Positions 13,992 to 47,438 of a DNA stretch of 64,000 bases are shown piece by piece (within the stretch, counting starts at the first letter, position 1; each line of letters begins with the position of its first letter). The stretch is taken from assembly GCA_009664345.1 (NCBI GenBank), contig CP043547.1, forward strand, positions 4,988,709 to 5,052,708. The letters are read 5' to 3'. The position numbers were made by a program, and so were the translations under genes. This stretch comes from Planctomycetales bacterium 10988 (GTDB taxonomy: Bacteria > Planctomycetota > Planctomycetia > Pirellulales > Pb10988). The notes below the pieces were generated by a model. The model saw nothing but the letters and a program-made list of their open reading frames with translations, did not search any database and was not told the origin of the DNA.

Positions 13992-15524
13992 ATGAGCCAG
14001 GCAATCATCCTACTGATCTCAGAAGAGGAAGATCTGCGAGAAACCGTAGGCCGGGCCGTCGGTGGTGTTGGGGATTTAGTCCTGCAAACGTATCCAAATA
14101 CACAATCCGCCTATCAGGAATTTGGCAAAGAAGAACTTGCCTTGGTCCTGGTTCATTTAACCGCCCGAGATGATTCGTCCACGATTCCTTTTGTGATGCA
14201 AGGGTTGGCGGCTTCGGGGCAAGCGGTTGCGGTTGTGACTCTTTGTGACGAGCTTGCCCCTCAACAATTACTCATGATGCTCAGGGCAGGGGTGGCGGAT
14301 TGTTTGCCACGGCCATTGGATATCAATCGTTTGGTCTTTCATATCAATCAATTAACCGTGCGAAAGCGGTTTACCTTAAAAAGTAACCAAGCAAATTCCA
14401 AAGGAACTCCTAAAGAGAGCCCACCTTCGACACCTCCTGCTTCCGCCGGACAAGCATCCTCCGTACCGGGCGGAAATTCATCCGTTCCCCGTCGATCTCC
14501 CTCGAAAGAGATCATCCGCGTCGGGAAAGCCCGTCCTTTTCTCTATCATGAAGAAGAGATGGGGGCGATGATGGTCGATGTCCACACCGTGGCTACGCAG
14601 GATACGACTGTTTTGATCACCGGGGAAACCGGAACGGGGAAGACCGAGCTAGCGAACTTGATCCACGAACTTTCCGATCGAAAAGGCCATCCTTTTGTCA
14701 CGGTCAACTGCGGATCACTGAGTGCGAATCTCATCGAAAGTGAAATGTTTGGCCATTTGCGAGGGGCATTCACCGGGGCTGAGCGGGATCGATCCGGTCG
14801 ATTTACCGAAGCTGGCGAAGGCACGCTCTTCCTCGATGATGTTGATGCCTTGCCGCTGGAAAGCCAAGCAAAACTCCTGCGAGCGTTGGAAGAACGGGTG
14901 TTCGAAGCCGTTGGTTCGGATAAGACCTTGCCATTAAAAGCCCGTATTATTACGGCCACGAATCAAAATTTGCCGCAATTGGTGGAAGAAGGAACCTTCC
15001 GAGAAGACCTTTATTATCGGCTTTGTGTGGTCGATTTTCCCTTGGCACCGCTCAGAAAGAGACCGCTTCTGCTAGAACCGCTCTGCGAAAAATTTATTCA
15101 GCAGATCGCCGGGAGAAATAATCGCCAGCCACCGAAATTGGCGGAGGATACCTTAGTTCTCCTGCAAAACTATCATTGGCCGGGCAATATCCGAGAGCTT
15201 CGCAATGTCGTTGAAAGGGCGGTCTCACTCTGTCGTGGAAGCGAAATCCTGGCGGAGAACTTACCCGAGCATCTGCGTAATCCTCAGCCGGATTCAGTGC
15301 TGGATTTCCCGTCTTCAACCTCTATCTATTCAGAGTTTTCTGACTCGACCAGTAGTTCAACGTCGATTCCTACGACGCTCGGGAAAGCCATCGATGAGGC
15401 GGAACGCGAAAGTATCGAACGGGCACTGGCCAACAATGCCAACAATCGCTCCAAAGCCGCCAGCGAATTAGGAATCAGTCGAGTCACCCTTTACAAAAAG
15501 ATGCGTAAATACGGCTTACACTGA
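13992..15524 (+). CDS. sigma-54-dependent activator with degenerate receiver, beside the Tad pilus locus
   Basis: A 510-residue enhancer-binding protein. Residues 1-125 have a receiver fold, but the phosphoacceptor Asp position is His55 (LVLVHLTARD) and the conserved Lys is Arg107 (CLPRPLD), so it is unlikely to be phosphorylated in the usual way. A Ser/Pro-rich linker (about 133-170) leads to an intact AAA+ domain: Walker A GETGTGKT near residue 211, the sigma-54 contact loop GAFTGA near 258, and Walker B GTLFLDD. The C-terminus is a Fis-type HTH (AASELGISRVTLYKKMRKYG). It lies just upstream of the flp/cpa/tad genes, and 210 bases after its stop a cluster of palindromes begins, ahead of a -24/-12 promoter. 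It is the natural candidate regulator of the pilus genes. Confidence 0.92.
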   Translation: MSQAIILLISEEEDLRETVGRAVGGVGDLVLQTYPNTQSAYQEFGKEELALVLVHLTARDDSSTIPFVMQGLAASGQAVAVVTLCDELAPQQLLMMLRAGVADCLPRPLDINRLVFHINQLTVRKRFTLKSNQANSKGTPKESPPSTPPASAGQASSVPGGNSSVPRRSPSKEIIRVGKARPFLYHEEEMGAMMVDVHTVATQDTTVLITGETGTGKTELANLIHELSDRKGHPFVTVNCGSLSANLIESEMFGHLRGAFTGAERDRSGRFTEAGEGTLFLDDVDALPLESQAKLLRALEERVFEAVGSDKTLPLKARIITATNQNLPQLVEEGTFREDLYYRLCVVDFPLAPLRKRPLLLEPLCEKFIQQIAGRNNRQPPKLAEDTLVLLQNYHWPGNIRELRNVVERAVSLCRGSEILAENLPEHLRNPQPDSVLDFPSSTSIYSEFSDSTSSSTSIPTTLGKAIDEAERESIERALANNANNRSKAASELGISRVTLYKKMRKYGLH

Positions 15525-15734
15525 GTTTTTCAGCGTTCAGCATCTAATCTCAAAGTGGCTCACTCCTCCGATGGTCCGCCCACAAACTCCCACTTCTTTC
15601 CTTCTACTGGGCTCAGAGGTTTGGAGAAATCCGAACACAAGCCTCATTTCTCTGCTTTCCATGCCAAAAAGTGCTCTAGGTGGGAACTCTCAGTTCTTGT
15701 AAACTTCCTCGAACATTTTACAACGGGATCAATG

Positions 15735-15817
15735 TGTAAAGAAGTGTAAACCTAGGTTTACAGTTAACAGCCCTGTTAACACTCTTTTGTAAACATCGGC
15801 TTACATGCCACTTAACA
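15735..15817. promoter_or_regulatory. enhancer-like cluster of TGTWAA/TTWACA half-sites
   Basis: Seven exact TGTWAA or TTWACA hexamers plus one single-base variant fall in 83 bases. Two 18-base perfect palindromes abut: TGTAAACCTAGGTTTACA (15745-15762) and GTTAACAGCCCTGTTAAC (15763-15780). A further pair TGTAA-N8-TTACA lies at 15788-15805, and a direct TGTAAA copy 10 bases upstream at 15735. The first has the exact TGTAAA-N6-TTTACA form of the E. coli TyrR box. The cluster lies 130-215 bases before the flp1 -24 element, the usual place for a sigma-54 upstream activating sequence. Confidence 0.75.
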
Positions 15818-15945
15818 GCCATTTTCCTTTTGATTGGTGTATAACAGAAATTTCTGTAATTATATTTTTCTTAAGTTGTTGAATATAATGAACTTATGGA
15901 AAACGAAAATCTTTTTGTTATTTAATTAAAGAAATCATCGGCATT

Positions 15946-15963
15946 CCGGCACGGGGTCTGCTT
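15946..15963 (+). promoter_or_regulatory. sigma-54 (-24/-12) promoter of flp1
   Basis: CCGGCACGGGGTCTGCTT matches the RpoN consensus TGGCACG-N4-TTGCW at nearly all informative positions: GG at 15948-15949, ten bases, then GC at 15960-15961. The predicted start is near 15973, about 100 bases before the flp1 ATG. Confidence 0.8.
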
Positions 15964-15980
15964 TAGGTATGAGTCAGAAA

Positions 15981-16015
15981 CGGTAATCATCAACAAAACA
16001 AAAAAATGATAACCG
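15981..16015 (+). promoter_or_regulatory. hairpin in the flp1 leader
   Basis: CGGTAATCAT (15981-15990) pairs with ATGATAACCG (16006-16015), 9 of 10 bases, with an A-rich 15-base loop. It begins just after the predicted sigma-54 start, so it would sit at the 5' end of the flp1 mRNA. A stabilising role is inference. Confidence 0.45.
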
Positions 16016-16072
16016 TCTTGTTTTGAAACTCTTCCTGTTTTTTTGTTACCCGGTTGCTCTAAGGAGAACCCC

Positions 16073-16255
16073 ATGTCGAAAGCTTTAAATCTCGTCAAAT
16101 CGTTCGTCAAAGAAGAAGAAGGCGCTACCATGGTTGAATACGGCTTGATGCTGGCTTTGATCGCCATCGTCTGCATCGTCGCCGTCGGTTTTGTTGGTAC
16201 CCAAGCCAGCTCTTTGTTCTCCGGTATTGGTGGTCATATCTCCTCTTCTACCTAG
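16073..16255 (+). CDS. flp1: Flp-type prepilin 1
   Basis: A 60-residue Flp/Fap pilin precursor. A short basic leader ends in KEEEG, where the TadV/CpaA peptidase should cut before ATMVEYGLMLALIAIV; the mature protein keeps Glu at +5 and the adjacent Tyr that define Flp pilins, then one hydrophobic helix and a small Ser/Gly tail. The ATG at 16073 is preceded by AAGGAGAA. With the strongest ribosome site and the nearest sigma-54 promoter it is the best candidate for the major pilin. The C-terminus differs from those of the other two prepilins. Confidence 0.93.
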   Translation: MSKALNLVKSFVKEEEGATMVEYGLMLALIAIVCIVAVGFVGTQASSLFSGIGGHISSST

Positions 16256-16308
16256 TAGCCTGACTTGCTTCTTGACTACTTGGAATTGTAAGCAAATTTT
16301 GCTTTCTA

Positions 16309-16355
16309 CCGGATGGACTTCTTTACCCCGCCAAAGGAGTTCATCCGGTTTTTTT
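16309..16355 (+). terminator. strong hairpin with T-run between flp1 and flp2
   Basis: CCGGATGGACTTCTTT (16309-16324) pairs over 16 positions (two wobbles) with AAAGGAGTTCATCCGG (16333-16348) around the loop ACCCCGCC, followed by T7. It should terminate most flp1 transcripts and let some continue into flp2. The same loop recurs ahead of flp3. Confidence 0.8.
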
Positions 16356-16368
16356 GAGGTATAATACT

Positions 16369-16566
16369 ATGTTTCGTTCTTTATACCAATTTATTTGGAA
16401 GCGTTTGCGGGAAGAAGAAGGGGCAACTATGGTCGAGTACGCTTTGGTGCTCGCACTTGTAGTTATTGTTTGTGTCATCGCGGTAGGCTTTGTCGGTCAA
16501 GGGACTCTAGGTCTTTTTAATCAGCAAGGTGACCTTCTTGGGAATTCCTTGGGTGGGACCACCTAA
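16369..16566 (+). CDS. flp2: Flp-type prepilin 2
   Basis: A 65-residue Flp prepilin. Cleavage is expected after REEEG, releasing ATMVEYALVLALVVIVCVIA with Glu at +5. The C-terminal tail QQGDLLGNSLGGTT is shared with prepilin 3 (QQDELLGNSLGGS), so these two are closer paralogs than prepilin 1. The ATG at 16369 follows GAGG by nine bases and sits directly after the terminator hairpin, so expression probably depends on read-through. A minor pilin role is inferred. Confidence 0.88.
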   Translation: MFRSLYQFIWKRLREEEGATMVEYALVLALVVIVCVIAVGFVGQGTLGLFNQQGDLLGNSLGGTT

Positions 16567-16703
16567 TTTTTTGCTTGATTGACCTTCCGTCTTTCTGGGT
16601 TGAATGCTAGTTTTTAGATAGAGTTCGTTAAGTCACCGCGAGATTCGTGCTATTAATTCCTTCGTCTTCTCGCCTATTTGACACCCTTTTCTGGAGGGTG
16701 GGC

Positions 16704-17297
16704 ATGTTTGATCCTACTATATTACAAATTATTGTGCCTATCTTGGTCGTAGCTATCTTTGCCTTGATTGCTGCTGCGCTGGATATATGGCGTCTCAAAA
16801 TTAATAATTTGATTACGCTACCCCTGCTCTTCTCTGGAGTAGTTTACCACCTTGGAGTCGGTTTTTATCTAGGTTCTCCTTACCTGCTTCCTGGTATTTT
16901 AGGAAGTATCATTGGACTTCTTTTTGGAATTGGCATCCTGCTAGTTCCCTGGCTCATGGGTGGTGTCGGCGGAGGAGACCTCCGCTTGATGGGAGCTGTA
17001 GGCGCTTGGCTCGGCCTCGAACTTGCCCTTTGGGTGTTTGTGGTCGGAGCCTTGGCAGCTGGTGTCTATGCCATCATTATGATCTTTTTGTCTCTATCTT
17101 TTCATGAGACCTGGGTCAAGTTGCAAATCATTTGGTATCGGATCGTTGCTTTCTTTGAGCTTTTGCGCGCGGAAGACTCCGTTGAGAATTCTGAAGGTCG
17201 GCGACGTTCCCAATTCATCCCTTTTGGTGCCATGCTCTTTCTAGGAGTTGGTTTTGTTATCTGGGGAGTTTGGTCAGGATTCTTTCCCCTTCCTTAG
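16704..17297 (+). CDS. cpaA: prepilin peptidase CpaA/TadV (A24 family)
   Basis: A 197-residue integral membrane aspartic peptidase with about six hydrophobic segments. The first catalytic Asp lies in ALDIWRLKINN (near residue 27) and the second in the signature GGVGGGDLRLMGAVGAWLG (GxGD motif, near residue 96). It cuts Flp prepilins at the G/A bond. A loop rich in charge (LLRAEDSVENSEGRRRSQF) precedes the final membrane helix. The ATG at 16704 is preceded by GGAGGG; an upstream in-frame start at 16647 would add an unneeded 19 residues. It lies between flp2 and flp3, consistent with dedicated service to this locus. Confidence 0.9.
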   Translation: MFDPTILQIIVPILVVAIFALIAAALDIWRLKINNLITLPLLFSGVVYHLGVGFYLGSPYLLPGILGSIIGLLFGIGILLVPWLMGGVGGGDLRLMGAVGAWLGLELALWVFVVGALAAGVYAIIMIFLSLSFHETWVKLQIIWYRIVAFFELLRAEDSVENSEGRRRSQFIPFGAMLFLGVGFVIWGVWSGFFPLP

Positions 17298-17463
17298 TTT
17301 CTTTCCAATCTTTAATTTTGCCGTTGATCACTCCGAGCGGCTAGCAAGCTGCACCTTCTCTAAGTATCAGCCTTACTATTTCCACTTTGCCCTCTCTTTT
17401 CTTTAGAGACTAATGCATCTATATCTGGCGGGAATCGTTAGATTTTTAAAGTTCCGATAGGAG

Positions 17464-17524
17464 TGTTAATCTATATTAACACTTGATAATTAGGCTTTAC
17501 ATATTTCGATAATTCAAATTTACA
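17464..17524. promoter_or_regulatory. enhancer-like TGTTAA-N6-TTAACA dyad plus TTTACA half-sites
   Basis: TGTTAATCTATATTAACA (17464-17481) is a dyad lying inside the nine-base perfect inverted repeat AGTGTTAAT/ATTAACACT. TTTACA follows at 17496 and 17519. The dyad centre is about 193 bases before the GG of the flp3 -24 element, nearly the same as the corresponding distance at flp1 (about 195). Confidence 0.65.
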
Positions 17525-17662
17525 ACCAAACAACTCTCTGCTTACTTTCTGTTCTTTTTCAGAGGAAATGCATTTTTTAAGATAGTAGTAAGTTTAATTT
17601 TTAAAATGGCTTACGTAATTTATGTAGCCGTGATAGTATTGTTTCTTCGAATTTACGGGATT

Positions 17663-17680
17663 TAGGCATGGAACATGCTT
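17663..17680 (+). promoter_or_regulatory. sigma-54 (-24/-12) promoter of flp3
   Basis: TAGGCATGGAACATGCTT has GG at 17665-17666, exactly ten bases, then GC at 17677-17678, with GGCA and ATGCT matching the RpoN consensus. The predicted start near 17690 leaves a leader of about 240 bases before flp3. Confidence 0.65.
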
Positions 17681-17858
17681 CTGGTAATTGACACCAGAGG
17701 TTTATAGCGATTCCTAAAGTGATCTGTTCACTCTGCTCAGTCCGAGTAGCTTGAGCCAAGAAAGATGGGAAACGCTCATTGAAAGGTGTTTTGTGGTCTT
17801 AAAACATTTTCACTGCGGCCATCAATAGCAGTGTTTTACAATACGTTCTTTGATTGGG

Positions 17859-17907
17859 CCGGATGAATCCCTTACCCCGCCAATGGGGTTCATTCGGTCC
17901 ATTTTTT
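17859..17907 (+). promoter_or_regulatory. leader hairpin of flp3, terminator-like
   Basis: CCGGATGAATCCC (17859-17871) pairs over 13 positions (two wobbles) with GGGGTTCATTCGG (17885-17897). The loop contains ACCCCGCC, identical to the hairpin before flp2, and T6 follows. No gene ends just upstream, so it looks like an attenuator within the flp3 leader. Confidence 0.65.
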
Positions 17908-17927
17908 AATTCAGAGGAGCCCTGTTC

Positions 17928-18122
17928 ATGAACACGACGATCTGTTCTGCCTTTCAAGCCTTTCTCTCCGATGAGGAAGGAGCAACGCTTGTAGAATATG
18001 GCTTTATGTTGGCATTAATTGTTCTTGTCTGCTTGGCTGCCGTTACCACGATTGGAACCCTGACTCGGGAACTCTTTGTTCAGCAAGATGAACTCCTAGG
18101 AAATTCGCTGGGAGGAAGTTGA
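17928..18122 (+). CDS. flp3: Flp-type prepilin 3
   Basis: A 64-residue Flp prepilin. Cleavage is expected after SDEEG, giving ATLVEYGFMLALIVLVCLAA with Glu at +5. The tail QQDELLGNSLGGS is shared with prepilin 2. AGAGGAG lies a suitable distance before the ATG at 17928. It has its own sigma-54 promoter and upstream dyad, so its expression may be tuned separately from flp1 and flp2. Confidence 0.9.
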   Translation: MNTTICSAFQAFLSDEEGATLVEYGFMLALIVLVCLAAVTTIGTLTRELFVQQDELLGNSLGGS

Positions 18123-18824: not shown

Positions 18825-19862
18825 GTGTCGCCCCGAACAATGATCGTTGTTGTGTTGGCCTTGGTGTTTGGCCTTTGTGCTGCTGTTTTGGTTCACTTGG
18901 CGATTAGTGCCGAACCGTCCCAAGGGACTGTTGAAGTCGTCAAATTTTATGTCGCGAAAGACGACATTCAAACCGGGATTCCGTTGACGGCCGAAATGGT
19001 CACGCTTGAGGAATTCCCCAAGAACCGTACTCCGAATGATGGTTTTCCCGCTGATAAAGCCGAAGTGTTGCTTGATCCTGAATCTCCTCGTTGGGTCAAA
19101 TTCAAAATTTTCAAAGGCGAGCCGATCGTTAATTACAAATTAAGCGATTCCGGCGAACGTGGTATTTCCGCCTTGTTGAATCCGGGTGAGCGTGCGGTCT
19201 CGATTCCGATTGCGGATACCTCGACCGCTTTGGGTGGTTTGGTCATGCCGCGAGATCGCGTTGACGTCCTCCTTTCTGTTGAAAGTAAACGAGAAGATCG
19301 TGACCTTTATGGAATCGATGATGGTGGTGCAACTACCTCAACTCTCTTGCAAAATGTGGAAGTTCTGGCTGTCGGACAAGTTATTACCCAGGATGACTCC
19401 TCAAATAGCGATGCCCATGGTTCCAAGCAACAGGTTAACTTCCGTTCGGTGACCCTTCGTGTCACTCCCGAACAAGCTTCTCTTCTTCAGCTTGGCATTC
19501 AACAAGGTCGTCTTCACTTGACCCTGCGTGGCCCTCAAGACGTCGAAGATGTTGATATCAAGCCATTGACCTTGGTTGAACTGCGGGGAACCTCCAAAGA
19601 GGCAAACCAAAATCCGAACGTCGATGATAGCTTCCAATCGCAACTCGAAGAAATGGAACGTCGTTTCGAAGAGCGACTCGAACTTCAACGAGCCGAAATG
19701 GAAACCGCTTTGTTGACCTCCGATTCAGATGATTCGATCCCGACCTTGGAAGGCATCGAACCTGAAAAGATGGAGTTCGTCTTCGTGAAAATGCTCCGAG
19801 GTCGCCACTCTTCGAACTTCAACATTCGTATTCCGAATGAAGAACAAGAAGGCCAAGAATAG
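18825..19862 (+). CDS. cpaB: Flp pilus assembly protein CpaB/RcpC
   Basis: A 345-residue inner-membrane-anchored periplasmic protein. One N-terminal membrane helix (residues 5-28) is followed by an SAF domain (about 40-110, VAKDDIQTGIPLTAEMV) and the CpaB core (about 115-250, NPGERAVSIPIADTSTALGGL and PRDRVDVLLSV). The C-terminal 90 residues include an acidic coiled-coil-like stretch (LEEMERRFEERLELQRAEME). CpaB works with the CpaC secretin in the outer-membrane part of the machine. The GTG start at 18825 follows AGAGGAGG. No secretin gene follows, where it is usually found. Confidence 0.9.
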   Translation: MSPRTMIVVVLALVFGLCAAVLVHLAISAEPSQGTVEVVKFYVAKDDIQTGIPLTAEMVTLEEFPKNRTPNDGFPADKAEVLLDPESPRWVKFKIFKGEPIVNYKLSDSGERGISALLNPGERAVSIPIADTSTALGGLVMPRDRVDVLLSVESKREDRDLYGIDDGGATTSTLLQNVEVLAVGQVITQDDSSNSDAHGSKQQVNFRSVTLRVTPEQASLLQLGIQQGRLHLTLRGPQDVEDVDIKPLTLVELRGTSKEANQNPNVDDSFQSQLEEMERRFEERLELQRAEMETALLTSDSDDSIPTLEGIEPEKMEFVFVKMLRGRHSSNFNIRIPNEEQEGQE

Positions 19863-19976: not shown

Positions 19977-21095
19977 ATGCAGGTGTATCTGATCAGCGAC
20001 GATCCTTTGCTCTCGCACCAGACCAGCGAACTCTTGCAATCCATGGGATTTGAGACGCCACCGGATTCGATTCTTTCTTGGAATCAGGCGGCGGAGGTCG
20101 TTCACCTAGAAGGGATTTTCCTGTTCGTTCTGGGTTCAAATCCCCAGCGAACCTTGACTCAACTCTCCTCGATCTTTTCAAAGTTTCCCTCTTCGGAACC
20201 TCCTGGACAACGCGTCGCGATCGGTCCCCATGACGCGGATATCATCTTGAAGGCGCTGACACATGTCAATGAATATGTGCCGGATATCGAACTGGAGAAA
20301 CGACTTCGAGGTGCAATTGAACGTTTGCTGTTGCAGGATCAGGAGCGGCAAGCTCAGGGGAAAATCGTTTCGATTCTTGGGCCCAGCGGCGGGAGTGGAG
20401 CAAGTAACATTGCGGCAAATCTAGCCACGGCTTGTTGCAATCAAACGCGAACCCTGTTGATTGACATGGACCTACAATTTGGCTCCTTGGATGCTTTGTT
20501 GGATTTAGAGGTTAAAAGAAGCCTGACCGATCTTTGCGAATTGAGTTCCGACTTCGATTATGAAATGCTCCAACAAATCTTCTGCCGTACTGCTCAAGGG
20601 TTGTCGGTACTTGCGAGTCCTCGCTGTATCCGACGCTCTCAGATCATCGGCAAAACCGTGATGGATCGGCTCATTGCCTTATCTCGGGAGCATTTTAATT
20701 TGACCGTTTTAGACGTGGATCGAGCCTTTCGAGAGAGTCATCTCACCAGTCTTTTGCAATCGGACCTAATCCTGATCATCTTGCGGTTGGACTTCACTTC
20801 ACTTCGAAATGTGCGGCAGATGTTGATGCATCTCGAAGGGCTGGGCGTTGTTCGCGAGCAAATCGAATTGGTCGTCAATCGCGGTGGCCAAGCAAAGGAA
20901 ATGCGAGTCAATCAAGCGGAAATTGCCTTAGGAAGACGTATTTTTCATATTTTGCCTGAAGACACCAAGCACGTGCTTCGCTCTGTGGGGTTAGGGGTGC
21001 CAGTCCTCGTGCAGGCCCCGCGATCCAAAATCGCTCAAAGCATGATCGGGTTTGCAGAGAAGGTTTCTGCTCGTTGTGCGTTACAACTTGTTTGA
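19977..21095 (+). CDS. cpaE: CpaE/TadZ-like pilus localisation ATPase with atypical P-loop
   Basis: A 372-residue protein with a divergent receiver-like N-terminal domain (about 1-120) and a ParA/MinD-type ATPase domain (about 128-370). The deviant Walker region reads GPSGGSGASN (residues 135-144) where ParA/MinD proteins have KGGxGK[S/T], so both Lys are missing; switch residues LIDMDLQFGSLD (161-172) are conserved. TadZ/CpaE marks the site of pilus assembly at the pole and binds the receiver-AAA machinery. Loss of the Lys suggests weak or no ATP hydrolysis, as is seen in some TadZ proteins. The ATG at 19977 follows GAGG. Confidence 0.85.
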   Translation: MQVYLISDDPLLSHQTSELLQSMGFETPPDSILSWNQAAEVVHLEGIFLFVLGSNPQRTLTQLSSIFSKFPSSEPPGQRVAIGPHDADIILKALTHVNEYVPDIELEKRLRGAIERLLLQDQERQAQGKIVSILGPSGGSGASNIAANLATACCNQTRTLLIDMDLQFGSLDALLDLEVKRSLTDLCELSSDFDYEMLQQIFCRTAQGLSVLASPRCIRRSQIIGKTVMDRLIALSREHFNLTVLDVDRAFRESHLTSLLQSDLILIILRLDFTSLRNVRQMLMHLEGLGVVREQIELVVNRGGQAKEMRVNQAEIALGRRIFHILPEDTKHVLRSVGLGVPVLVQAPRSKIAQSMIGFAEKVSARCALQLV

Positions 21096-21539
21096 TGCCT
21101 ATATTTGATTGTTCGTCGCTAAAATCCTCGTTTTCTTAAATTTACTTTCTTGTTGAAGGGGTTAGAAGAAGTTATTTTAAAACAGAGAGACCTTTCCCTT
21201 TCTACAACTTTTTCTCGTTCTCGATGTGTTCGGTCTCAACTATAGAGAGCGTTTCAATCAATGGATGAACTGAGCTTTGAAGAGCTAGAGTGGAGTCAGG
21301 AATCTTTTTCTCAAGATTTTCCTGCGATTCGATCTGAAATTTTCCCTGAGGCCCACTTGTACTCTTGATTTGCTCGTTCCTGATAAACTTTAGACAAGTA
21401 ATTTCGAACGGAATTTGATCGCGAACGTTCTCGTAAAGAAACTTCCCTCTGGATTTGGGAACTGTTGAGAACTTGTAGTTGATTCCAGACGTTGACAACG
21501 AAACACTTTTCACTACTTGTTTGCCTGGGAGATTCTGGC
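21096..21539. other. intergenic region between cpaE and cpaF
   Basis: About 440 bases with no clear gene, hairpin or promoter. A TTGACA hexamer at 21492 has no partner -10. Confidence 0.4.
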
Positions 21540-23036
21540 ATGTCAGAAACGCCTCCTCAAGGAGGAGATCGGTCCCCTCTTCAAAAGCGTCGTCCTCAAC
21601 TCAAAGGAATTCGACCTCCGTTGAAGGCACGCCCTAATCAAGCGGGTCGGCCGATGCCCCCTAATCGCCCTTTACCTCCACGTCCTCCGGCAGCGGGTCC
21701 AGCGGCAAATACCCCGAATAACACTAATAATGCGCAATCAAACGATGAACAGTTTGCAAAACTGAAATCAGAGTTACATCAACAATTGATTGCGAACATG
21801 GACTTGGGAGCGGTCGGCCAAATGGACGACGATCAGCTCCGCCGGGAAGTTCGTCAGGCCGCGGAAGAATTATGTCGATTACGGGCTGACCTGTTGAGTT
21901 TGGCGGATCGCGAACGCCTGATCGAAGAAGTTCTGGATGAAGTCTTCGGCTTTGGTCCTTTGGAAATTTTGCTCCGCGATCCCAGTATTTCTGACATCCT
22001 GATCAACGGGCCGAAAATTATTTATGTGGAACGCCGCGGTCGTTTGGAGCGAACCGATGTGACCTTCCGCGACGAACCTCACCTCCTGCAAATCATTCAG
22101 CGGATTTGTAACCGGGTTGGTCGTCGTGTCGATGAAACGTGCCCGATGGTGGATGCCCGACTTCCTGATGGTAGCCGGGTGAATGCTATTATTCCGCCAC
22201 TCGCACTCGATGGTTCGCTGGTCTCGATTCGTCGCTTTAGTGTCAAGCCACTCTTGGCGGAAGATTTAGTTCGATATGGTTCCATTACGACGGATATTGT
22301 CCAGTTCTTGTCCGCCGCCGTGCGGTCTCGGATGAATATTTTGGTCTCCGGAGGTACAGGTTCCGGAAAAACGACGCTCTTGAACCTACTTTCGGGCTAT
22401 ATTCAAGAAGACCATCGTGTTGCCACGATTGAAGACGCGGCGGAATTGCGGTTGCAACAACCTCACGTGGTCCGGATGGAAACCCGTGCTCCGAACATTG
22501 AAGGAAAAGGGGAAGTCACCGCCCGCGACTTGGTGAAAAACGCCTTGCGGATGCGGCCTGATCGCGTTGTGGTCGGGGAATGCCGTGGTGGTGAAGCCTT
22601 GGACATGTTGCAAGCCATGAACACCGGGCACGATGGATGTATGACGACCATTCACGCGAATACTTCTCGGGATGCTTTGGGGCGTCTGGAAATGCTCGTC
22701 GGGATGGCCGGTTTCGATGTTCCGATTTGGATTATTCGGAAGCAGATTACCTCCGCGATTCACATGATTGTGCAAGCCGCCCGGCTGATGGGGGGGGCTC
22801 GGAAAATTCTGCAAGTTTCTGAATTGACGGGGATGGAAGGCGATACCATCACCATGCACGATATTTTCATCTTCCACCAAACCGGGGTTGATGAAAACGG
22901 AAATACACAAGGGTATTTTGCCGCGACGGGGAACCGTCCGCATTGTACTCAACGACTGAAAGCAACCGGAAACGCCTTGCCGGATGACTTCTTCGAACGA
23001 CGTATTATGACGACCGAAGGTCCTAGCTCGAAATAA
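21540..23036 (+). CDS. cpaF: Flp pilus secretion ATPase CpaF/TadA
   Basis: A 498-residue type II/IV secretion ATPase. The first 70 residues are a Pro/Arg-rich unstructured extension; the N-terminal domain follows (about 75-250) and then the RecA-like core with Walker A GGTGSGKT (271-278), the Asp box ([21 protein letters not shown]), Walker B ([15 protein letters not shown]) and the His box ([13 protein letters not shown]). It powers polymerisation of Flp pilins from the cytoplasm. GGGAG precedes the ATG at 21540; the frame is open to 21492 but the added residues look spurious. Confidence 0.95.
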
Positions 23037-23260: not shown

Positions 23261-24235
23261 GTGAATTCGGCAGTTCTCAGTTTGATGATCTTCGTTTCGG
23301 TCATTCTTGGGATCGCAAGTATCTATTCGATCATGATGGATATGTTCCTGCGTGATCGAACCAAGTTGTCAGACCGGTTGCAGAAAGAATTTCTAAACAA
23401 GCAACGTGAAAAGGCCAAGCGTACCCCGCTGTTTAAGGACTTTGATAAGGTTGCCGCCGAGCTTCGTGGAGGGGAACTTTCCTTCAACGAGAAGATGCAA
23501 AACATGATCGATCAGGCGGGGATGGAATGGACCGTCGGAAAGCTCATGGGAATGAGTGTCGGGCTCGGGATCTTCTGTGCCATGCTTGCTGCTCTCCCGT
23601 TTTTGACCTCCGATTTCATTACTTTAGGCATCGCCATTGTGATCGGTGGCGGTGTGGGCGGAATGATCCCTTATTCCTTGGTAAAAGTGAAACAACGCGG
23701 CCGGATCGAAAAAATGCGATCGCAACTTCCGGAAACCTTTGAGTTGATGTCTCGCGTGATTCGGGCGGGGCAAACGATGGAACAAGCGATGCACGCGGTT
23801 GCGGATGAATTTTCTCCTCCGATCGCACTTGAGTTTGCTCTCTGCCACGAAATGATGAACCTCGGGATCGATATGGACTTGGCCCTGAAAGATATGGCCC
23901 GTCGTAGTGGGATCATGGAACTTCGGATCTTCGTAATGGGCGTGCTGATTCAAAAAGACGTCGGGGGGAACATGGCTGAGCTTATGGATAATCTTTCCAA
24001 AATTGTGCGGGAACGCTTCCGCATCAACGGTCAGATCGCAGCCCTCACTGCGGAAGGTCGGATGCAGGCCATGGTCTTGATGGCCTTACCGCCGGGTATG
24101 TTGGTTATTATGACGGTCCTTAATGCGAGTTACGTCGCGGAGCTATTTAAGCAACCGATTCTATTGGGCATGATGGTCCTTTCCGAAGGTCTTGGCTATC
24201 TTTGGATTCGAAAAATCGTCAACTTCGACTTCTAG
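23261..24235 (+). CDS. tadB: Flp pilus inner-membrane platform protein TadB
   Basis: A 324-residue membrane protein of the type II secretion F family. A first membrane helix lies at about 3-27, a basic cytoplasmic stretch follows, then two helices (about 88-130), the F domain around the LPETFELMSRVIRAGQTMEQAM motif (about 152-173), and C-terminal membrane helices. TadB and TadC form the platform through which CpaF drives pilin addition. The GTG start at 23261 is preceded by GGGAGG. Confidence 0.93.
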   Translation: MNSAVLSLMIFVSVILGIASIYSIMMDMFLRDRTKLSDRLQKEFLNKQREKAKRTPLFKDFDKVAAELRGGELSFNEKMQNMIDQAGMEWTVGKLMGMSVGLGIFCAMLAALPFLTSDFITLGIAIVIGGGVGGMIPYSLVKVKQRGRIEKMRSQLPETFELMSRVIRAGQTMEQAMHAVADEFSPPIALEFALCHEMMNLGIDMDLALKDMARRSGIMELRIFVMGVLIQKDVGGNMAELMDNLSKIVRERFRINGQIAALTAEGRMQAMVLMALPPGMLVIMTVLNASYVAELFKQPILLGMMVLSEGLGYLWIRKIVNFDF

Positions 24236-24330
24236 TCAATTACAAGTACATACAGCGTTTGAAATTCTAGAGGGCAAACCCAGAAAACGATTTTGTCCCC
24301 ACTAGGCTTTAACTGAAGAGGAATAAATCG

Positions 24331-25281
24331 ATGTTTGGGGAAATGAATATAGTTGTCATCGGGGTAGCGATTCTGATGTTTGGGGCTTTGCTCACGATCA
24401 TGGCGCTCTTTCTCTTCCGCCCGGAGGAGTCGGTGGATGATCGATTGAAGTCGTTGACGGAAACTCGATCTCACGATCCCTTTAAATCTTCCAATCAACA
24501 ACAGGATGTGCGGGCGATTCGTAGCCAGGTCGGAGAAAACATCAAGAAAATCGGGACGATTATGATGCCCGATGAAAACGACAAGAACCGTACGCAATTA
24601 AAATCTCGGATGATTCATGCTGGTTTTTATAGTCCTTCCGCTTTGCCTCTCTTTGTGGGCGTCAAGGCTTTAATGACCTTCGCCCCAGCGTTGATTGCTC
24701 TCTTACTTGGAGCAGCGGGCTTGTTCTCGATTCAAACGGCGCTCATTATCGCGGTGGTCGGTTGTGTCGTTGGGTTGATTGGCCCTAGCTTTTGGCTCGA
24801 TAATCGTAAAAAAGCACGGCAAACCGCGATCCGTCGTGGTCTCCCGGATGCGATGGACGTCTTGGTGATTTGCCTTGAAGGCGGCGTCAGCCTCGATGCC
24901 TCGCTTGCACGGGTTGGCGAAGAGCTTTCCAAGGCCCACCCGATCTTGGCCAATGAACTCAAAATCTGCCAACGACAAATCCAAATGGGGCAAAATGCAG
25001 GGGAAGCATTGCAGAACTTTTCTCGCCGTGCGGATATGGAAGAAATTCGCTCGCTGGCCGGCGTGGTGATTCAAGCTCAAAAGTATGGTTCAAGCATGGC
25101 GAATGCTTTGCGTGTCCATGCGGATTCCCTGCGTCAAAAACGCTCTCAAAAAGCGGAAGAAATGGCCCAAAAAGCCTCGACCAAAATTCTCTTCCCGACC
25201 TTGCTCTTCATTTTCCCGGCGATCTTCTTGGTCATTTTGGGACCTGCCGTGATTCAAATGTACCGCGTATTGGTCAAATAA
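24331..25281 (+). CDS. tadC: Flp pilus inner-membrane platform protein TadC
   Basis: A 316-residue paralog of TadB with the same type II secretion F fold. Membrane helices lie at about 7-27, 105-150 and near the C-terminus (ILFPTLLFIFPAIFLVILGPAVIQM); the F domain core reads LPDAMDVLVICLEGGVSLDASL (about 171-192). AGAGGAAT precedes the ATG at 24331. It is the last gene of the pilus locus and is followed by a strong terminator. Confidence 0.93.
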   Translation: MFGEMNIVVIGVAILMFGALLTIMALFLFRPEESVDDRLKSLTETRSHDPFKSSNQQQDVRAIRSQVGENIKKIGTIMMPDENDKNRTQLKSRMIHAGFYSPSALPLFVGVKALMTFAPALIALLLGAAGLFSIQTALIIAVVGCVVGLIGPSFWLDNRKKARQTAIRRGLPDAMDVLVICLEGGVSLDASLARVGEELSKAHPILANELKICQRQIQMGQNAGEALQNFSRRADMEEIRSLAGVVIQAQKYGSSMANALRVHADSLRQKRSQKAEEMAQKASTKILFPTLLFIFPAIFLVILGPAVIQMYRVLVK

Positions 25282-45983: not shown

Positions 45984-47438
45984 ATGCCTACACTGCTTGC
46001 TATTGACGATGACCCTTCGGTATTGCTGCTGCTTCGCCGAACTTTTTCTCCTCCGCAAGTCGAATTACATACCGCACAGACGGCCAAGGAAGGTTTGGAG
46101 CTGGCTCAATCCGATCCCCCGGATGTGATTATCTTGGATATCGTCTTGCCGGAAATGTCGGGATTGGAATGTTACCAGCGACTGCGTGATATCGACGCTC
46201 GGATTCCGGTGATCTTTATCACGGCCAGTACCAACAGTAGCACCGCCATCGAAGCGATGAAGATGGGTGCCTATGATTATGTCTCCAAGCCGCTGGATGT
46301 GCGCCATTTGCGGAGTCTCGTCAATCGGGCCTTCGAAATCAGCCGCTTGATGAAAGTCCGTGTGGAAGTCGCCGAAAATGAACAAGCGACCGAAGCGGAG
46401 AAACAACCCGATCTGCTGGTCGGTCGTTGCTCGGCGATGCAGGAAGTCTATAAGGCCATCGGTCGTGTCGCCCCGCAGAACATCACGGTCTTGATTCAAG
46501 GAGAGACCGGGACAGGAAAAGAACTGGTTGCCCGAGCGATCTATCAATATAGTCAACGCGATCGTGGGCCTTTCTTGGCCGTCAACTGTGCAGCGATTCC
46601 GGACAATCTGCTGGAAAGCGAACTCTTTGGTTACGAGAAAGGGGCCTTCACCGGAGCCGATCGTACGAGGATTGGGAAGTTCGAACAATGTAATCATGGG
46701 ACCCTCTTCCTGGATGAAATTGGCGATATGAGCCCTTTGACGCAAAGTAAGGTCTTGCGGTTGTTGCAAGAACAACGCTTCGAACGTCTCGGCGGCAATG
46801 AAACCATTCACACCGATGTCCGCATCATCGCGGCGACCCACCGAGATTTGGAGGAACAAGTTGGCCGAACGGAATTTCGCGAAGACCTTTATTATCGGTT
46901 GAATGTCTTTACGATTCGCCTGCCCCCGCTTCGGGAACGCCTCGAAGATATGGAGCCGCTGGTCAATCACTTCATTCAGAAGTTCAGTCGAGCACTCGGC
47001 AAGCAGGTCTCCAGTATCGCCACGGAATCCATGGAGCTTTTGAAAAAGTATCGCTGGCCGGGGAACTTGCGAGAATTGGAAAGTATCATCAAACAGGCGC
47101 TTGTCCGAGCGACCGGCCCCGTGCTTGTGCCGGATTTTCTTCCTGAGGAACTCCTCACGGCGACTCAAGTCGCGGAACCGGCGGCGGCGAATGATGATCA
47201 CCAATTCCCCGATTGGCAACGTCATATCCAAGGTTCCCTGAAAGATGGTTCCGAAAACCTCTATGCAGAAACCTTGGAACTGATGGAACGTTCGTTGCTC
47301 ACCGCAGTGCTCAAACATACCGGTGGCAACCAGCTTCAGGCGGCTAAAATATTAGGGATCACCCGAGGGAGCCTTCGCAACAAGATTCGTTCGTTGGGCA
47401 TTTCGATTGATCGTGTGATCCGCATGGATGAAGATTGA
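45984..47438 (+). CDS. NtrC-family response regulator
   Basis: A 484-residue response regulator. The receiver is intact (DDD at 8-10, phosphoacceptor Asp52 in VIILDIVLPEMSG, Lys in SKPLD). The AAA+ domain has Walker A GETGTGKE, GAFTGA near residue 222 and Walker B GTLFLDE. The Fis-type HTH (AAKILGITRGSLRNKIRSLG) is at the end. It should activate sigma-54 promoters on phosphorylation. It ends 72 bases before the hybrid histidine kinase and forms a pair with it. ATG 45984 starts the receiver in register; GGAGG lies 12 bases upstream. Confidence 0.94.
   Translation: MPTLLAIDDDPSVLLLLRRTFSPPQVELHTAQTAKEGLELAQSDPPDVIILDIVLPEMSGLECYQRLRDIDARIPVIFITASTNSSTAIEAMKMGAYDYVSKPLDVRHLRSLVNRAFEISRLMKVRVEVAENEQATEAEKQPDLLVGRCSAMQEVYKAIGRVAPQNITVLIQGETGTGKELVARAIYQYSQRDRGPFLAVNCAAIPDNLLESELFGYEKGAFTGADRTRIGKFEQCNHGTLFLDEIGDMSPLTQSKVLRLLQEQRFERLGGNETIHTDVRIIAATHRDLEEQVGRTEFREDLYYRLNVFTIRLPPLRERLEDMEPLVNHFIQKFSRALGKQVSSIATESMELLKKYRWPGNLRELESIIKQALVRATGPVLVPDFLPEELLTATQVAEPAAANDDHQFPDWQRHIQGSLKDGSENLYAETLELMERSLLTAVLKHTGGNQLQAAKILGITRGSLRNKIRSLGISIDRVIRMDED

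Follow-up and report, generated by a model that had tools for sequence, protein, structure and literature searches.

The regulator gene and the control region of flp1

We analysed a stretch of 64,000 nucleotides (the window) from Planctomycetales bacterium 10988, contig CP043547.1, in which the gene for a sigma-54 enhancer-binding protein (EBP) heads a cluster of Tad/Flp pilus genes. The genome is a single contig of 6.65 Mb and the sole representative of its family among the genomes compared; it gives 27 matches to PSD1, a planctomycete hallmark, versus none in 14 control genomes. On the + strand the genes follow in the order EBP, flp1, flp2, prepilin peptidase, flp3, cpaB, cpaE, tadA, tadB and tadC, and Pfam and NCBIfam searches found the Tad/Flp (type IVc) set of Flp pilins, prepilin peptidase, CpaB, CpaE, TadA, TadB and TadC. 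We propose, with a probability of about 0.8, that the EBP is a dedicated activator of the adjacent pilin promoter, acting through paired dyads and RpoN. The elements in question are the following:

13992-15524, + strand: sigma-54 EBP gene, 510 amino acids; receiver-like N-terminus without the phosphorylated aspartate, AAA+ domain with GAFTGA, C-terminal Fis-type helix-turn-helix (HTH)
15698-15715, no strand: weak dyad TGTAAACTTCCTCGAACA, 11/12 match, centre 241.5 bases upstream of the -24 GG
15745-15762, no strand: dyad A TGTAAACCTAGGTTTACA, two TGTAAACC half-sites, centre 194.5 bases upstream of the -24 GG
15788-15805, no strand: dyad B TGTAAACATCGGCTTACA, 43 bp from dyad A, centre 151.5 bases upstream of the -24 GG
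15947-15962, + strand: flp1 -24/-12 promoter CGGCACGGGGTCTGCT, predicted 5' end at about 15971-15974, same position class in relatives
16073-16255, + strand: flp1, probable major pilin (PF04964)

The protein has the parts that define a bacterial EBP: an AAA+ domain (Sigma54_activat, PF00158; E 7e-63) in which Walker A, Walker B and the GAFTGA loop are all intact, and a Fis-type HTH (HTH_8, PF02954; E 2e-14), encoded in a genome with one rpoN gene (E 2e-62). These matches bear out the first-pass annotation, a reading of the sequence without database searches, which had placed an EBP gene at this position. In the predicted model the N-terminal domain has a receiver-like fold of alternating strands and helices (block pLDDT, a model confidence score, mostly 76-88). 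Its phospho-accepting aspartate is replaced by His55 and the conserved lysine by arginine, and both residues are absent from these positions in 9/9 members of the EBP family. Because they are replaced here and neither is kept in the family, the EBP is probably not a phosphorylated response regulator of the NtrC class. The receiver phosphorylation position of FleQ is likewise not conserved, and the predicted model shares its fold and receiver-AAA+-HTH order with EBPs of the FleQ, FlrC and NtrX type, which differ in target genes and sites. A second sigma-54 EBP gene lies within the window at 46458-47402 (G000:C1:5035166-5036110).

The dyad pattern TGTNAA-N6-TTNACA was found twice in the window against 0.06 expected, a count reached in 0/100 shuffles. 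As the first-pass annotation had described, such dyads stand before flp1 and before flp3, each with a -24/-12 site downstream, and the window has no others; the distances from dyad centre to GG that it had put at about 195 and 193 bases measure 194.5 and 192.5. Dyad B had not been singled out. Across the genome the same strict pattern occurs at 8 sites, versus 2 for a reversed control pattern. Among 16 dyad sites scanned in the genome, only the flp dyads have a -24/-12 site scoring at least 13.5 at 150-195 bp downstream; none of the remaining dyads is paired with a good -24/-12 site at a similar spacing, and a genome-wide dyad regulon was not found. A perfect 38-bp palindrome, TGTTAACAAAAGTTTACAGTTGTAAACTTTTGTTAACA, was noted at 1.66 Mb (G000:C1:1662740-1662777; L015 6741-6778), flanked by a divergent FG-GAP-type gene and a pair of genes resembling an ATP-dependent zinc protease and rimK; no convincing -24/-12 accompanies it.

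Scored with a hand-made sigma-54 matrix, the flp1 site reaches 14.6 and the flp3 site 13.5, where the best hits in random 350-bp stretches set the 95% level at 13.3 and the 99% level at 14.0. The corresponding p values are about 0.005-0.01 for flp1 (230-300 bp before the gene) and about 0.025 for flp3 (300 bp before the gene), and the two sites depart from TGGCACG-N4-TTGCW by 2 and 3 mismatches, respectively.

The TyrR box is TGTAAA-N6-TTTACA, which dyad A matches exactly, and the first-pass annotation had seen a special relationship of the EBP to TyrR, whose HTH is likewise of the Fis family. It is therefore conceivable that the dyads serve a sigma-70 regulator or repressor, of TyrR type or otherwise, the likeness to -24/-12 promoters being coincidental; the Tad-linked EBP of one relative (G046) has even lost GAFTGA, as TyrR is known to have done. 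We consider this explanation highly improbable, since the window EBP keeps GAFTGA and the -24/-12 site is kept at its position upstream of flp across families. TyrR identity of the EBP was rejected: with the TyrR model it scores 210 bits, where the cut-off is 576, and this model ranks 19 among the 25 families listed. The HTH was likewise rejected as a TyrR DNA-binding domain, Fis being the best of 20 PDB matches at E <= 10 and TyrR absent from them. The half-site, moreover, extends to CC and reads TGTNARCC across relatives, and the proposed link to TyrR does not stand.

Conservation in related planctomycetes

An EBP orthologue directly precedes flp in G066, G046, G133, G372 and G345, which belong to other genera of the same order. 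In G179 it lies about 5 kb from flp, with a secretin operon and a lipoprotein gene between. The best -24/-12-like site is found 75-146 bp upstream of the first flp gene in G066, G133, G372, G345 and G179, G046 being the exception. The arrangement of EBP, -24/-12 promoter and pilin gene recurs in other families, and the pairing of dyad and -24/-12 before flp, which the first-pass annotation had proposed to seek in related genomes, recurs in relatives. In a tree, the Tad-linked EBPs cluster with high-scoring members from the class with a support of 0.79, the inner nodes being weak. Members of the EBP family outside the class were not found in the sampled genomes of the phylum, in searches that scored just 4 or 5 EBP candidates per genome. 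A search for related loci with the EBP as query gave mostly other EBPs and did not list its own genome. Three of the loci, from Gimesia-like planctomycetes, showed a second association of an EBP with Tad genes: there a different EBP gene is convergent with tadC (L236, L241, L248).

Another type, with pilins that read EDGPTAVEYAVMLALI and no EBP nearby, accounts for most flp loci in the order. A sigma-54 site (p <= 0.025 within 230 bp upstream of the first flp) was present at 9 of 15 EBP-type loci versus 1 of 37 loci of the other type (Fisher p 1.2e-5, which is indicative since both the Flp typing and the matrix were defined after inspection). Among class members added later, the EBP-type flp genes of G646, G516 and G128 have strong -24/-12 sites (p 0.005-0.015), those of G483 and G452 have weaker ones, and those of G414, G507 and G501 have none, while the other-type flp loci in the same genomes, about 16 of them, show almost no -24/-12. 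Other-type flp genes of several genera are preceded, at about 265-290 bp, by a conserved word resembling AGGCAAACCG-N2-CGCA (L119, L134, L135, L136).

At six EBP-linked loci, we searched a 350-bp stretch upstream of the -24 element for all 8-base words with two gaps. The word TGT.A.CC (TGTNANCC) and its complement were the only tested words present in 6/6 stretches, with 12 hits; 1 of 300 dinucleotide shuffles reached as much, and 40 control flp loci averaged 0.12. On this evidence, the half-site is better written as TGTNARCC across relatives. G066, G133 and G372 share with the window the form TGTAA[AG]CC and the HTH residues SRV, while G345 and G179 have TGTCAACC and SRT, a covariation that is suggestive but small. 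The paired dyads are spaced by 43 bp in the window and 44 bp in G066. Of the relatives whose flp promoter is clear, G133 alone gives a significant match to the strict dyad consensus derived from the window (p 0.003).

In three genomes the GAFTGA loop of the family EBP is damaged (GSFGGV in G046, L081; GAFAGA in G507, L205; GSIPGA in G501, L208), and the EBP-type flp genes there lack a -24/-12 site. Such a site is present in 11/12 genomes with an intact loop versus 0/3 with a damaged one (p 0.009), or 9/12 versus 0/3 by a strict count (p 0.044). G507 and G501 belong to one genus, so these are two independent cases of loop damage, and in both of these genomes the EBP does not adjoin flp. A tentative extension of our proposal, which we hold to be somewhat less likely than not, is that a class-wide family of planctomycete sigma-54 activators is dedicated to pilin genes and has a non-functional receiver, and that two or more lineages have jointly lost the sigma-54-contacting loop and the pilin -24/-12 as the regulator-promoter pair moved off sigma-54.

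The pilin promoter might also depend on sigma-54 while a different EBP of the genome acts there and the neighbouring EBP serves another function. The genome encodes at least 4 further EBPs with matches at E <= 1e-60, and in G052, G329 and G303 the promoter is present with no neighbouring EBP detected. We nevertheless regard this alternative as unlikely, as the EBP-flp neighbourhood is kept in several families, the TGTNANCC word lies upstream in all six EBP-linked stretches and is rare in controls, and promoter loss accompanies GAFTGA damage within this very EBP family.

Several points weigh against assigning the promoter to the neighbouring EBP and its dyads. Besides the three promoters without a neighbouring EBP, the hand-made matrix and the typing after inspection, G414 has an EBP with GAFTGA, yet its flp lacks a -24/-12 site. 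Most class-level members of the EBP family do not adjoin Tad genes on the contigs examined; draft assemblies break many loci in the relatives. The strict dyad is marginal in G066 (p 0.05) and G372 (p 0.09), and no better than chance in G345, G179, G303, G329 and G052. A relaxed dyad pattern is not enriched genome-wide, with 19 sites versus 21 for the control.

The flp3 unit and the probable extent of the regulon

A second set of elements lies before flp3, downstream of a hairpin that separates flp1 from flp2:

16308-16349, + strand: terminator-like hairpin with a T run in the flp1-flp2 interval, shuffle z -6.4
17464-17481, no strand: dyad C TGTTAATCTATATTAACA, centre 192.5 bases upstream of the flp3 -24 GG; the CC of the conserved half-site is missing
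17664-17679, + strand: probable -24/-12 promoter AGGCATGGAACATGCT of the flp3 unit, 264 bp upstream of the ATG
17855-17901, + strand: strong terminator-like hairpin between the flp3 promoter and flp3
17928-18122, + strand: flp3, paralogue of flp2

The first-pass annotation had taken these elements for an independent copy of the flp1 layout and had missed the hairpin in front of flp3. The hairpins before flp2 and before flp3 are homologous (82% identity over 34 bases), and because both hairpin and pilin gene are paralogues of those of flp2, the flp3 layout is a duplication of hairpin plus gene and does not count as an independent instance. A trace of flp1 was not found in the flp3 leader, where 146/200 shuffles align equally well, and the leader gave no match to RNA families.

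The sigma-54 regulon could then comprise the flp1 unit only, the dyad and -24/-12 site of flp3 being decayed, fortuitous, or the source of an RNA of about 210 nucleotides ending at the hairpin. The distance from promoter to ATG, 264 bp, exceeds the 75-146 bp range found for the first flp genes of relatives, and the terminator-like hairpin intervenes. Dyad C, in addition, lacks the conserved CC. On the other side, dyad C matches the dyad pattern exactly, and its distance of 192.5 bases to a good -24/-12 site is at most 2 bases off the flp1 spacing, a combination unlikely to arise by chance (p 0.001 for the dyad in its own stretch). We view a regulon confined to flp1 as a serious possibility, though not the favoured one. 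The flp3 promoter is plausible but weaker on sequence grounds, and less certain because of the intervening hairpin; it may be attenuated or decayed, or give rise to a short RNA. What had been claimed at the outset, that the local EBP drives the pilins through RpoN, thus holds in that a local sigma-54 activator and -24/-12 control of pilin genes are supported, with the flp3 promoter as the weaker part.

Hairpins downstream of flp occur in G133 and G345 as well, and would fit limited read-through past an abundant pilin. The one after flp in G133 (L082, about 2380-2417) is of the CCGGATGG type and similar to those of the window.

The remaining genes of the cluster are:

16369-16566, + strand: flp2
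16704-17297, + strand: prepilin peptidase, TadV/CpaA type (PF01478)
18825-19862, + strand: CpaB/RcpC
19977-21095, + strand: CpaE-like ATPase
21492-23036, + strand: TadA/CpaF ATPase
23261-25281, + strand: membrane proteins TadB (23261-24235) and TadC (24331-25281) (PF00482)

The secretin (RcpA/CpaC) is absent from this cluster. Four secretins are encoded elsewhere in the genome, and one of them has a pilus N-domain and is followed by a TPR lipoprotein gene; it is likely to be the Tad secretin of this organism. The probable Tad secretin operon (L311 2978-6794) encodes this secretin, a 292-amino-acid protein with no assigned function and the TPR lipoprotein, and lies far from the pilins. Neither a sigma-54 site nor a half-site was found upstream of it. 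Because the secretin operon and the other dyads of the genome lack matching sites, the regulon is probably limited to the pilin promoters.

Proposed mechanism and relation to known systems

From the anatomy of genes and sites, their conservation and their statistical association, we infer binding, activation, termination and the nature of the signal as follows. EBP dimers would bind paired, inverted TGTNARCC half-sites some 150-245 bases upstream of the promoter, at dyads A and B, which are separated by 43 bp, roughly four turns of the helix. The bound EBP would loop to RNA polymerase held with RpoN at the -24/-12 site at 15947-15962 and open the flp1 promoter through ATP hydrolysis. The main product would be flp1 mRNA, the hairpin after flp1 probably limiting read-through into flp2 and the prepilin peptidase gene. 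A further unit, weaker than the first, would use dyad C and the site at 17664-17679, and its transcript would meet the terminator ahead of flp3. Control would thus act on pilin supply, the Tad secretin operon lying elsewhere without such a promoter. Because the receiver aspartate and lysine are gone, the input is probably a signal other than receiver phosphorylation. This reading raises the question of which signal an activator lacking a functional phosphorylation site responds to ahead of pilus formation.

Sigma-54 control of a Tad-type pilus is already known in one sulfate reducer, so the earlier statement that this mode is not usually described for Tad pili was too strong. In Desulfovibrio vulgaris, the sigma-54-dependent regulator DVU2114 was bound at Tad-type pilin genes (PMC3333781; PMC4641369). 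By description, DVU2114 resembles the window EBP: it is a sigma-54-dependent EBP that has GAFTGA, and its target pilin genes adjoin a Tad/Cpa assembly cluster like that of Caulobacter. It is catalogued, however, as a two-component response regulator, and its targets include a second pilus operon. The window EBP is set apart by its receiver without the phosphorylated aspartate, its TGTNARCC half-site, its lineage within the Planctomycetota and a secretin operon that lacks such a promoter. In Pseudomonas, Myxococcus and Geobacter, type IVa pilin genes are under sigma-54 control of the PilR type (cited in PMC3333781). There too an EBP and RpoN control pilin supply, but with a two-component partner and for type IVa rather than Tad/Flp pilins.

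A 2025 genome-wide survey of sigma-54 that covers Planctomycetia does not mention Flp or Tad (PMC12316311), and in the literature searched we found no report of sigma-54 control of Tad/Flp pilins in Planctomycetota, where the regulation of surface pili is essentially uncharted. New here are a family of planctomycete EBPs whose receiver is inactive, the operator motif of this family, and the concerted decay of its GAFTGA loop and the pilin promoter. The conserved set of activator, operator and promoter is open to direct and inexpensive tests, the TGTNARCC motif can be used to find the regulon elsewhere, and natural variants show the loop of the activator and the promoter decaying in concert.

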